A stretch of DNA of 38,092 bases, from NCBI GenBank assembly GCA_902796575.1, contig CADBPS010000052.1, positions 1 through 38,092 on the forward strand. Direction: 5' to 3'. Of the stretch, positions 8,931 to 14,209 are shown one piece after another. The notes beneath the pieces were generated by a model that searched no databases, had not been told where the DNA came from, and worked only from the letters and a program-made list of their open reading frames with translations. A program made the translations under genes and the position numbers. Numbering within the stretch: the stretch's first letter is position 1; every line of letters begins with the position of its first letter. Source of the DNA: an uncultured Methanobrevibacter sp. (GTDB lineage: Archaea > Methanobacteriota > Methanobacteria > Methanobacteriales > Methanobacteriaceae).

Positions 8931-9881
8931 TTAAAAATTGTTTTCAATAGCTTTAATTAAATTGTAGATTGTTTTATTGGTACTTACATCAACACCATAT
9001 TTATCTGCCAGTTCTATGACTTTGCCGTTTAACGTATCAATTTCCGTTCTGATTTTTCTTTTAATGTCCTGATGGGTTGAGGAATAATGATTATATGTAT
9101 CCATTACCAGTTTTGAATAAAAAATTTCTTTATAGTCATCACTGTTATTCCAGAATGTGGAATATGGAGAAGCATCTATTACATCAAAGATTTCTTCTAT
9201 CAGTTTATCCATAATATTTTTGGAATATGGATTGTCCTTTAATTCACCATATGTAACATCAAGAATAGCTCCTAACGGATTTAATGTGCAGTTATAAAGC
9301 ATTTTAGCCCATAAATATTTATCCAATTCATCTGTTAATTCACATTTAATACCTGATTTTGTTATTGCATCAGCTATTGGAATTAGGCAATTCGGATTTT
9401 CGTTTTGAAGTGATCCAAGCATAATAGGCTCTGTGTAAACTGTGACTTCACTGATATTTCTTTGAGGGCGTGTAAATCCGGTAATTACTCTTGCACAGAA
9501 TACTTCATTTTTATCAAAAAATTTCAGGTAAAACTCATCATTTCCAAATCCGTTCTGACAAATCAGAATCTTAAAATCATTTTTTAGAATTCTTTTGTTT
9601 TCAGACAGCTCTTTACTGACCGTTTTATTAACAACCGTTTTGGTACAGATTAAAACAAAATCAACCGAATCATCAGGAATCTGTGAGTATTGTGCATATA
9701 CCTCAAATTCATTGCAGTCGAATGAATAATTTTCAAACAAACCTGTTCTTTTAATACCTTCCTGTTTCATTTTATTTGCGGTTTCACAGCTTGCAAGAAA
9801 GGAAACATTAATATTTTGGGATAGAAGTGATGTTCCCAATCCAATTCCAACAGAACCGGAACCTATTATTAAGACATTCAT
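8931..9881 (-). CDS. panE: 2-dehydropantoate 2-reductase (ketopantoate reductase)
   Basis: NADPH-dependent enzyme reducing 2-dehydropantoate to pantoate on the coenzyme A route. The N terminus is the Rossmann nucleotide loop MNVLIIGSGSVGIG. ILICQNGFGN and CARVITGFTRP match the family's mid region. The catalytic lysine is in DKYLWAKMLYNCTLNPLGAI, and the substrate-binding glutamate in IRTEIDTLNGKVIELADKYG. I chose ATG 9881 over the in-frame ATG at 9899. The Rossmann strand then begins at residue 2 as in the family, and a TATA box at 9907-9913 lies 25-30 bases upstream, which would make the mRNA nearly leaderless. The family also contains related short-chain 2-oxoacid reductases, so the exact substrate is likely but not certain. 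Confidence 0.82.
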   Translation of the reverse strand: MNVLIIGSGSVGIGLGTSLLSQNINVSFLASCETANKMKQEGIKRTGLFENYSFDCNEFEVYAQYSQIPDDSVDFVLICTKTVVNKTVSKELSENKRILKNDFKILICQNGFGNDEFYLKFFDKNEVFCARVITGFTRPQRNISEVTVYTEPIMLGSLQNENPNCLIPIADAITKSGIKCELTDELDKYLWAKMLYNCTLNPLGAILDVTYGELKDNPYSKNIMDKLIEEIFDVIDASPYSTFWNNSDDYKEIFYSKLVMDTYNHYSSTHQDIKRKIRTEIDTLNGKVIELADKYGVDVSTNKTIYNLIKAIENNF

Positions 9882-9922
9882 ACAGTTAATTATGTTCATA
9901 TCACAATATATATGTACTTAAA

Positions 9923-10639
9923 CTAGAACCTCACCTCAACTTTATCAATATTAACATCATTGGATACGGGGTATTCATGATATGTGGATGAATCTTCACC
10001 GTCATCCCATTCACTCCATTTCCATTGTCCATCCATATAGAAATGTCCTCTTGAAGAGTAAGAACTCTTGTCAACAAGCTGGCCGTTTTTATAAACCCAA
10101 ACTCCAAGTCCTCCAACTGTTGCACCTTTCCATGTCATAGCTTCAACTTTGTACTCACCGACAGTTTTGCTGACACGGACATTATCCTTAGGTTCTAACG
10201 TTACTGTTCGCTTGGATGACTGTGTTTGCAAAGTATTGGACGAGAGGGATTCGACAGTTGTTTCCTTAAATTCTATATTTTGAGAATTTGTACTTTCTTC
10301 ATAACTCGCATTGCCCGAGTAATGAGCGATTATATTGTATTTTCCATACGCCAGTTCATCCATTCCTAAAAATCCTTCCCCTTTTTCGTTAGTTGTTACT
10401 GTTTCTTGTTTTTCACCTTTTGCATCCTTAATAGTAATATCGATTTTTTGATTTGACAATGGAGTGTTGTTAGCATCTGTTAATGAAATTGAAAGGGAAT
10501 CTCCCTGATATAAAACATTGCTGGACATTGTTATTTTCGTATCTGTTTTGGCAGTGAATGGATTAAATAACACGATTCAGGTTACCAAAAGTATTATGAT
10601 TACCGAAAGCAGTATTATAATTATTTTGTTGTTATCCAT
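9923..10639 (-). pseudogene. Ig-like surface protein gene with an in-frame TGA in its membrane anchor
   Basis: Reading from ATG 10639 the frame codes MDNNKIIIILLSVIIILLVT, a typical signal anchor, then meets TGA at 10577-10579. The same frame continues without further stops for 216 codons from GTG 10573 to the end. The continuing part begins IVLFNPFTAK and holds an Ig-like/Big-type beta domain (ITMSSNVLYQGDSLSI to YGKYNIIAHYSGNASY) and a C-terminal Trp-rich domain with WKWSEWDDGEDSS. GGTGAT precedes ATG 10639 and overlaps the stop of the peptidase gene, which argues that 10639 is the original start. GTG 10573 has no good ribosome site. One base change (TGG to TGA) would explain it. It may be a recent nonsense mutation, a sequencing error, or a gene now made without its anchor. 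Confidence 0.75.
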
Positions 10640-10644
10640 GCTCA

Positions 10645-11649
10645 TCACCACAAGGCCAGATTGCCGATAACCTTTCCTTTATTTTCAATAGCTACTGTAT
10701 CTTCGAGGCGGACTCCAAACTCATTTTCAATGTATATTCCAGGTTCCACTGTTATAACCATTCCCTTTTCGATAATAGTATCATCCCTATATGAAAATCC
10801 AGGAGTTTCATGAATATCCAACCCAAGACTATGTCCCGTTGAGTGAATGAAATTATCTCCATAACCATATTCTGCTATAATATCTCTTGCTGTTTTATCA
10901 ATCTGTGAACATTGAATTCCGGGTTTGATTTTTTCAATAGCTTTATCATGAGCTTGTTTAACAATATCCAATATTTCATGTTCTTTTTCTGTGTAAACGA
11001 TTGTTCTTGTGTTGTCTGAACAGTATCCATTATATACACATCCCCAGTCTATCAGTATTGGCGTTTCCAAAGGTTTTGGCTGGGGTGTTGCATGAGGCAG
11101 TGATGTATTGGAGCCGCTTACAAGTATTGTGTCAAAGGATTCTTTTGATGCCCCATTTTCAATCATTAATTTAACCAGTTCAAAAGCCAGTATATTTTCA
11201 TTTTCACTGCGATTTGTTATATCCAATTGTTTAAAGGATTTTTGTGCTATGTTTGTTGCTTTTGTAATGTTTTTAATCTCATCTGAGGTTTTTATCATTC
11301 TCTGCTTGTTAATGTATGTTTTTGATTCAATTTCAAAATCATTTTTAAGTTTTTCATATGTAGCATAAGTCAGAGATGGCTCTATAGTCAGATTTTTAAT
11401 ATTTTCATTTTTCAAATCATTAATAATCGTTTTAAAATCTTCATATTCTCTGACAGTTATCCGAGAATTATTTTTTGCAATTTCCATGTCCATTTTTGAT
11501 GCATATACTATTGGATTTTCTTTGATTATGCAAAATGCAAAACTGGTTGGCCTGTAAGATGAAATATATTCAATATTACTAAAATCAGTTAGTAAATATC
11601 CCTGACAATCGTCCTTTTCCATTTCCTTTAAAATATTTTCAATTTGCAT
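10645..11649 (-). CDS. pepQ: M24-family Xaa-Pro dipeptidase/aminopeptidase
   Basis: Metallopeptidase with creatinase-like fold that removes residues next to proline. The N-terminal domain (1-120) is the typical creatinase lid. The catalytic domain shows all five expected metal ligands: D201 in LIDWG, D212 in SDNTRT, H273 in HSTGHSLGLDIHE, E302 in VEPGIYI and E316 in RLEDT. At 334 residues it is the usual size of archaeal forms. The start ATG lies about 28 bases from a TATA element shared with the divergent M50 gene. The Ig-like gene follows directly, its probable ATG being eight bases from this stop codon. The symbol is by similarity. Distinguishing dipeptidase from aminopeptidase is not possible here. 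Confidence 0.88.
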   Translation of the reverse strand: MQIENILKEMEKDDCQGYLLTDFSNIEYISSYRPTSFAFCIIKENPIVYASKMDMEIAKNNSRITVREYEDFKTIINDLKNENIKNLTIEPSLTYATYEKLKNDFEIESKTYINKQRMIKTSDEIKNITKATNIAQKSFKQLDITNRSENENILAFELVKLMIENGASKESFDTILVSGSNTSLPHATPQPKPLETPILIDWGCVYNGYCSDNTRTIVYTEKEHEILDIVKQAHDKAIEKIKPGIQCSQIDKTARDIIAEYGYGDNFIHSTGHSLGLDIHETPGFSYRDDTIIEKGMVITVEPGIYIENEFGVRLEDTVAIENKGKVIGNLALW

Positions 11650-11702: not shown

Positions 11703-12338
11703 ATGTTTAAGGTTACTGCTAGTGAAATAAGAGATTTAATTATTGCATTTATTTTCATTTCTCTAAGTTTTGCAATTTTATATTCTGGTCGTGACACTTC
11801 CAGATTATTGTCCATACTTCCAATTGTGATGGTTGGATTAGGGTTAGGATTCGTTTTACATGAACTTGGACATAAATTCGCTTCAATGCATTTTGGTTAT
11901 TGGGCGGAGTTTAAATTATGGCCCACAGGTCTGATTTTTGCATTGGTTTCATCATTTTTCGGTTTTGTATTTGCAGCCCCAGGTGCCGTGTATACCTATG
12001 CTGATTATGGGCTTGATGACAGGACTAATGGAATTATTTCCATTGCAGGGCCTGTTGTCAATATTATTCTGGCACTTATATTTTTAATAATCGGCCGTTC
12101 AGTTTACATGGATATGATGGTTAATCCATTTCTGCAGCTTGTGTTTGTAATATGTTCGTTAGGATTTTCGACCAACAGCTATCTGGCTGTTTTCAACATG
12201 ATACCTGTATGGAATTTAGACGGATCCAAAGTGCTTAGATGGAATATTGGTATCTGGATTATTACAATTGCAATTGCCGGAATTATGACTTACTGTTCTA
12301 TGACTATGGGCTTTGAAAATATTGTACTAAGATTATAA
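11703..12338 (+). CDS. M50-family site-2 type membrane metalloprotease
   Basis: Integral membrane zinc protease. HELGHKFASMHFG near residue 55 is the HExxH zinc motif inside a membrane segment, and FNMIPVWNLDGSKVL near residue 170 supplies the third zinc ligand (the N-x-x-P-x-x-x-L-D-G motif). At least five hydrophobic segments are visible. At 211 residues with no PDZ or CBS domain it is the minimal archaeal form. The ycaO gene begins one base after its stop codon, so it is probably co-transcribed with ycaO and tfuA. Its substrate is unknown. A link to methyl-coenzyme M reductase maturation is only suggested by position. Confidence 0.88.
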   Translation: MFKVTASEIRDLIIAFIFISLSFAILYSGRDTSRLLSILPIVMVGLGLGFVLHELGHKFASMHFGYWAEFKLWPTGLIFALVSSFFGFVFAAPGAVYTYADYGLDDRTNGIISIAGPVVNIILALIFLIIGRSVYMDMMVNPFLQLVFVICSLGFSTNSYLAVFNMIPVWNLDGSKVLRWNIGIWIITIAIAGIMTYCSMTMGFENIVLRL

Positions 12339-12339
12339 A

Positions 12340-13554
<1,215 letters not shown>

Positions 13555-13558
13555 TTAA

Positions 13559-14209
13559 ATGGTTAAGATTATTATATATGCTGGCTTGTCCATTTCCTTT
13601 GATGAAGCAAGAGAAATTCTGGATTCTACTGAAGACATTGAAGTTATTTATAAAAGACCTATTAAAAGAGGAGATTTGTCACAGGCTTTAAAGGAAAAAC
13701 CCGATATCATAGGCATTGTTGATGGTGTTTTCCATCAGAATTCTTCTGTCGGCCACAAGGAAATATTAGAGGTTATTAATAATGGAATCACAGTTGTTGG
13801 ATCATCAAGTATGGGTGCTTTAAGGGCCTGCGAGCTTGACACTCTAGGGATGATTGGTATTGGTTATGTTTACAAGCAGTATTCAACAGGCCAAATCATT
13901 TCTGATGATGATGTGGCAGTAATGTTGGATAAGGACACTTTAGAAGCATTGTCCGAACCTCTGGTTAATATGGATTACGTTTTCACAAATGCAGTGAATG
14001 AAAATATTATAAATAATGAAGAAAAAGACGAACTTATTAGAATAACAAAATCAACTTATTATCCTAAAAGAAGCTATTCAAAAACATTGAATGAATCCGA
14101 TTTAGATGAAGAAACCAAAGATAAACTTATAAATTTTATCCGAACATCACCAGATATTAAAAAAGAAGATGCGAAAGAATTAATCAGATTTATAAAAAAA
14201 TCTGTTTAA
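13559..14209 (+). CDS. tfuA: TfuA protein, partner of YcaO in McrA thioamidation
   Basis: TfuA-domain protein proposed to deliver sulfur to the YcaO-activated peptide bond of McrA. The TfuA core occupies about residues 40-150: DIIGIVDGVFHQNSSVGHKEILE, then GITVVGSSSMGALRACELD and GMIGIGYVYKQYSTG, which are the family's conserved stretches. Lysine-rich helices finish the protein. It starts 4 bases after the ycaO stop and is the last gene of the rightward unit. Thioglycine formation by ycaO-tfuA has been shown genetically in a methanogen; assignment here is by motif and pairing. Confidence 0.9.
   Translation: MVKIIIYAGLSISFDEAREILDSTEDIEVIYKRPIKRGDLSQALKEKPDIIGIVDGVFHQNSSVGHKEILEVINNGITVVGSSSMGALRACELDTLGMIGIGYVYKQYSTGQIISDDDVAVMLDKDTLEALSEPLVNMDYVFTNAVNENIINNEEKDELIRITKSTYYPKRSYSKTLNESDLDEETKDKLINFIRTSPDIKKEDAKELIRFIKKSV

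Follow-up and report, generated by a model that had tools for sequence, protein, structure and literature searches.

Does the 216-codon open reading frame between positions 10573 and 9923 encode a small soluble protein in its own right, or is it what remains of a surface protein whose membrane anchor has been cut by a stop codon? The frame lies on the minus strand of contig C52 in the draft genome of an uncultured Methanobrevibacter sp.; we refer to the whole 38,092-nucleotide stretch analyzed here as the window. In this strand, ATG at 10639–10637 opens a run of 20 codons (MDNNKIIIILLSVIIILLVT) that ends in TGA at 10579–10577, followed by a single ATC codon and then GTG at 10573. After the TGA, the same frame reads IVLFNPFTAKTDTKITM and continues, with zero further stops or frameshifts, to a TAG ending at 9923. 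A rereading of the sequence reproduced the coordinates given in a preliminary description of the locus, along with its 216 uninterrupted codons from the GTG to the TAG. The ORF list enters this gene as running from GTG 10573 to 9923 (216 aa), the start that gene callers had been expected to choose. Another ATG in this frame, at 10645, shares bases with the stop codon of the gene upstream; we preferred ATG 10639 because most relatives start with MEN or MDN. The features of the locus are:

10645 to 11649, minus strand: upstream M24 metallopeptidase gene, Xaa-Pro dipeptidase-like, intact, ending in TGA
10644 to 10649, minus strand: Shine–Dalgarno-like GGTGAT at the end of the M24 peptidase gene (sequence and duplex energy)
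10637 to 10639, minus strand: ATG start of the ancestral frame (sequence; agrees with the MEN/MDN starts of relatives)
10580 to 10639, minus strand: N-terminal membrane anchor, the 20 codons 5' of the stop (anchor HMM, 42 bits)
10577 to 10579, minus strand: in-frame TGA, codon 21, within the anchor (sequence; one TGA inside the profile match)
9923 to 10573, minus strand: 216-codon frame that stays open 3' of the stop, from GTG to TAG, the gene-caller frame (ORF list)
10280 to 10525, minus strand: Ig-like domain, Big_3_5-like, a predicted beta sandwich (below the Pfam cut-off; structure model)
9926 to 10216, minus strand: C-terminal beta module with no Pfam match (conserved Trp/Gly/Tyr pattern intact)
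8931 to 9899, minus strand: downstream ketopantoate reductase-like gene (ApbA/PanE), intact (ORF list and homology)

The two candidate starts differ in their ribosome sites. GGTGAT at 10649–10644 lies 4 bases 5' of ATG 10639 and gives a duplex energy of -8.4 kcal/mol against what we take to be the anti-Shine–Dalgarno sequence, versus -2.9 kcal/mol for GTG 10573. For 23 other starts in the window the values ranged from -8.3 to +3.2 kcal/mol, making ATG 10639 the most favorable of those compared and bearing out the good ribosome site ascribed to it earlier.

We then asked what the 20 codons encode. An anchor-only HMM was built from 13 relatives, with the window excluded, and searched against the six read-through frames of the window. 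It matched the window frame over 32 of 32 positions across the TGA (42.2 bits, i-E 5.8e-13); the next-best match over all six frames scored below 5 bits. A profile of anchor plus Ig-like part likewise matched the window copy (G000:C52:10238-10639) with an E of 9.1e-44 and one TGA inside the match. Because the anchor profile matches across the TGA, homology indicates a genuine anchor–Ig-like protein interrupted by a single stop and not a chance frame, which supports the preliminary description of an Ig-like surface protein cut in its N-terminal anchor. The extent of that anchor needs revision. Residues 6–20 have a mean hydropathy of 3.57, and there are indeed 20 codons 5' of the TGA, but in the alignment the hydrophobic stretch of the relatives extends to about residue 26, so that the stop sits inside the anchor and does not follow a complete 20-residue segment.

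Relatives of the downstream protein were present in all 67 genomes of the genus searched. Among 29 homologues, the anchor (M[ED]N..III.LL....) is shared by 26, in which it lies in frame and directly 5' of the Ig-like or C-terminal part; the other three (L026, L027 and L029) have different N-termini and were for that reason excluded from the anchor alignment. None of the 29 starts at the downstream GTG. Orthologues that naturally begin there had been named as the observation that would overturn a cut anchor, and a natural start at GTG 10573 is ruled out on this count. At codon 21, the 13 Ig-bearing relatives have Gly (6), Ala (4), Ile (2) or Phe (1), the Gly codons being GGA (3), GGC (2) and GGT (1); GGA, a single substitution from TGA, thus occurs in 3 of the 13. 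Trp, suggested earlier as a possible residue at this codon, stands there in none of them and is not supported. The same column in a wider alignment of 26 rows contains G 10, A 4, I 4, V 3, M 2, F 1 and two gaps, the gaps being L010 and L018, whose anchors were trimmed; L010 was included by hand in the count of 13 and the L018 anchor was seen in a separate readout of its locus. Judging from these alignments, the stop most often takes the position of a small amino acid within the membrane segment.

What kind of protein has been interrupted? Residues 17–98 of the 216 resemble Big_3_5 and other Ig-like families just under the Pfam cut-offs (Big_3_5: E 2.4e-7, 31.7 bits versus a cut-off of 35.5), and 10 of 26 alignment members, the window copy included, match Big_3_5. 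A structure model of the 216 residues has a mean pLDDT of 89 and two beta domains. The first, a predicted beta sandwich, aligns with a macroglobulin domain of complement C5 (Z 11.2, rmsd 2.3, 93 residues aligned), and the top rows of the fold search were Ig-like domains, those of macroglobulin type among them (Z about 11, rmsd 2.3–2.5, 91–94 aligned). The predicted Ig-like fold is a common arrangement and says nothing of function. The C-terminal module comprises 97 residues (pLDDT 95); a Pfam search of these residues matched no model, and Foldseek returned nothing with E < 0.001. Its best fold match, a DUF4426 protein (Z 6.7, rmsd 3.4, 80 aligned), was found among common beta sandwiches, and given such weak matches we assigned the module to no fold family. 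A PDB sequence search gave no match. The module occurs in 33 of 149 genomes sampled across the order, in 4 of 19 genera, and often on a short anchor without an Ig domain. Across L011–L023 and the window (9926–10216), its roughly 97 residues include invariant Gly, Tyr, Trp and His positions. Separately, clusters of anchor-plus-Ig genes at G035:C46, G038:C37 and G004:C1 1381488-1431063 share a common N-terminal part and have very different C-terminal tails, a pattern resembling tail exchange.

Adhesin-like proteins of Methanobrevibacter and Methanosphaera are described, in the part of the source drawn on here, as combining archaeal Big domains with an N-terminal domain for membrane anchoring (PMC11532034). 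By analogy, the architecture of the window protein fits such proteins. The anchor HMM match identifies a single N-terminal transmembrane segment, interrupted as now encoded; an Ig/Big-like domain of extracellular type follows, on the predicted fold and short of the Pfam cut-off, and there are many copies per genome. Unlike the adhesin-like proteins portrayed in that part of the source, the window protein is short, at about 237 residues, contains a single Ig-like domain and lacks a right-handed beta-helix; it also has an additional C-terminal module outside Pfam and an anchor interrupted by a stop.

The gene is flanked by the M24 peptidase and ketopantoate reductase genes, both intact. M24 matches occurred in 65 genomes, from which we examined 30 loci, that of the window among them; most flanks reached 1.5 kb past the M24 gene and some were shorter. 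At none of the 29 other loci did the Ig-like gene follow the M24 gene, so we treat the relatives as family members, not as proven orthologues. As far as sampled, the position of the gene is particular to the window lineage. Elsewhere in the window, a YcaO gene is directly followed by a TfuA gene (12340–14209), and an M50-peptidase-like membrane protein (11703–12338) adjoins this pair.

A frame open on both sides of a TGA could also reflect recoding, with the TGA read as selenocysteine, as Trp or by a suppressor tRNA. However, TGA is the stop of 4 of the 32 main ORFs in the window, including that of the gene directly upstream. No SepSecS was found in the source genome (one genome, 86% complete), in a search that did detect the M. 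jannaschii positive control. No tRNA-Sec exceeded the cut-off, and the places scoring below it also score as ordinary tRNAs. None of 28 tRNA matches, one of them an intron-bearing tRNA-Met, has a UCA anticodon, in a set that is incomplete and in which no Trp tRNA was seen. A selenoprotein or recoded gene calls for a Sec synthesis enzyme together with tRNA-Sec, and this 86%-complete genome yielded no such enzyme and no tRNA-Sec above the cut-off. Given the ordinary use of TGA, the lack of SepSecS and of an above-threshold tRNA-Sec, and the Gly, Ala and other residues at codon 21 of relatives, where neither Cys nor Trp is found, recoding or readthrough is scarcely credible; selenocysteine and a suppressor tRNA are rejected as far as an incomplete genome allows.

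Translation might instead restart at GTG 10573, only one codon past the TGA, and yield a functional, anchorless protein, in which case the stop would be tolerated. The intact and conserved downstream frame is what such re-initiation would leave. The weak ribosome site of this GTG argues otherwise, as do the absence of GTG starts among the homologues and the extracellular type of the domains, which would be made in a product with no export signal. We consider re-initiation improbable. The preliminary description had left two fates for the anchorless part, remaining inside the cell or not being made; the weak site makes the second likelier.

How old could the break be? Of 41 strongly conserved residues the window copy retains 34, and of the 33 that fall in the C-terminal part it retains 29; this is within the range of other members and indicates that the copy is not long dead. 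Together with the lack of a second stop or frameshift, this means that the break is recent, is tolerated or is not real; the lack of a second lesion in the frame agrees with the recent change proposed earlier. The last of these options is the main rival explanation, a consensus or assembly error, under which the organism would have a sense codon and make an intact anchored protein. One wrong base would suffice, the source genome is a draft of 161 contigs at 86% completeness in which the gene is single-copy at the DNA level, and an otherwise intact gene is how a consensus error would look. The TGA is known from this one draft assembly, the one genome of its species in the set compared. The nearest relative has a best identity of 51%; a search of genome contigs for a close strain returned two loci only (46% and 42% identity), and a search among viral contigs found no match. 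Against an error, the site is well inside the 38 kb contig and away from its edges, no other broken gene was noticed in the subset of window proteins scanned, and a relative with a single-contig genome (G004) also has a stop in such a gene. We judge an error unlikely and infer that the stop is present in the organism itself.

Other broken members of the family put the lesion in context. Stops were present in 4 of the 150 anchor-plus-Ig profile matches listed from a larger total: the window copy (TGA), G035 (TAA at residue 42), G004 (TAA immediately 5' of the anchor) and G051 (TAA at residue 121). In G053 and G060 the anchor is in a different frame from the Ig part, G060 having a frameshift plus stops. 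In G053 (L166, G053:C76:1700-2700), 32 bases are exactly duplicated in tandem where the anchor meets the Ig domain, which shifts the anchor out of frame with that domain; this duplication might reflect slippage or a switch, or be an artefact of assembly. In another genus of the taxonomic family, G110 has a heavily decayed copy and G133 an intact relative. The window lesion is shared by none of the other broken members. For comparison, stops occurred in 0 of 65 matches to the M24 neighbor and in 4 of 38 to the ApbA neighbor (G010, G027, G058 and G065), the latter possibly terminal stops or broken genes, so the break rate of the anchor-plus-Ig family (4 of 150 listed) is not clearly raised.

Several of these lesions arose independently at or near the anchor (G000, G004, G053 and G060), which could suggest that the stop marks one of the states in a mixed or reversible population, as a means of turning surface proteins off. 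The window lesion is a point stop, though, a reading of the flanking sequence showed no repeat tract, and the lesions vary in place and kind. As anchor breaks were examined because they were broken, we claim no hot spot. Population switching at this locus therefore seems most improbable. Very doubtful as well is the broader idea of a switch, reversible or acting at the population level, by which gut methanogens repeatedly uncouple anchor from exposed part (through point stops, frameshifts and short duplications) to shut off surface display, with the window as one off state. The literature on pseudogenes, phase variation and frameshifts in adhesin-like proteins offered general context only.

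The finding that best accounts for the locus is a disrupted frame with intact relatives, and we think it probable that this is a young nonsense allele, a null allele or pseudogene of an adhesin-like protein with one stop in its anchor. The gene would belong to a Methanobrevibacter family of short Ig-like surface proteins that are anchored at the N-terminus and occur in multiple copies. In this copy, a single substitution would have turned codon 21, midway through the membrane-spanning segment, into a stop. Translation from ATG 10639 would then end after a hydrophobic peptide of 20 residues. The portion meant for export would not be made, or would be made only at a low level from GTG 10573, with its poor ribosome site, and remain cytosolic without a targeting signal; absence of the protein product is thus what we would expect. 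The rest of the frame would be intact because the change was recent.

Such a break is most likely an ordinary finding, one that sets this copy apart from the intact copies of a large family. Published work describes pseudogenes and adhesin-like proteins as more numerous in intestinal Methanobacteriota than elsewhere in the phylum (PMC13135261); in Methanobrevibacter sp. AbM4, 14 of 1,730 genes are annotated as pseudogenes (PMC3746419). The window gene resembles the intestinal pseudogenes of the former source in being an inactivated gene of a gut lineage rich in both; it differs in that its frame is undamaged apart from one lesion, and it would be younger than copies in advanced decay, as in G110. 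Automatic annotation from GTG 10573 would list a short soluble protein and hide a cut, once-anchored surface protein, and the locus merits an annotation flag. A modest wider point is that such breaks are better counted by profile than by open frame. For gut methanogens, the locus would contribute a single, well-defined young break to the account of how adhesin-like genes are gained and lost.
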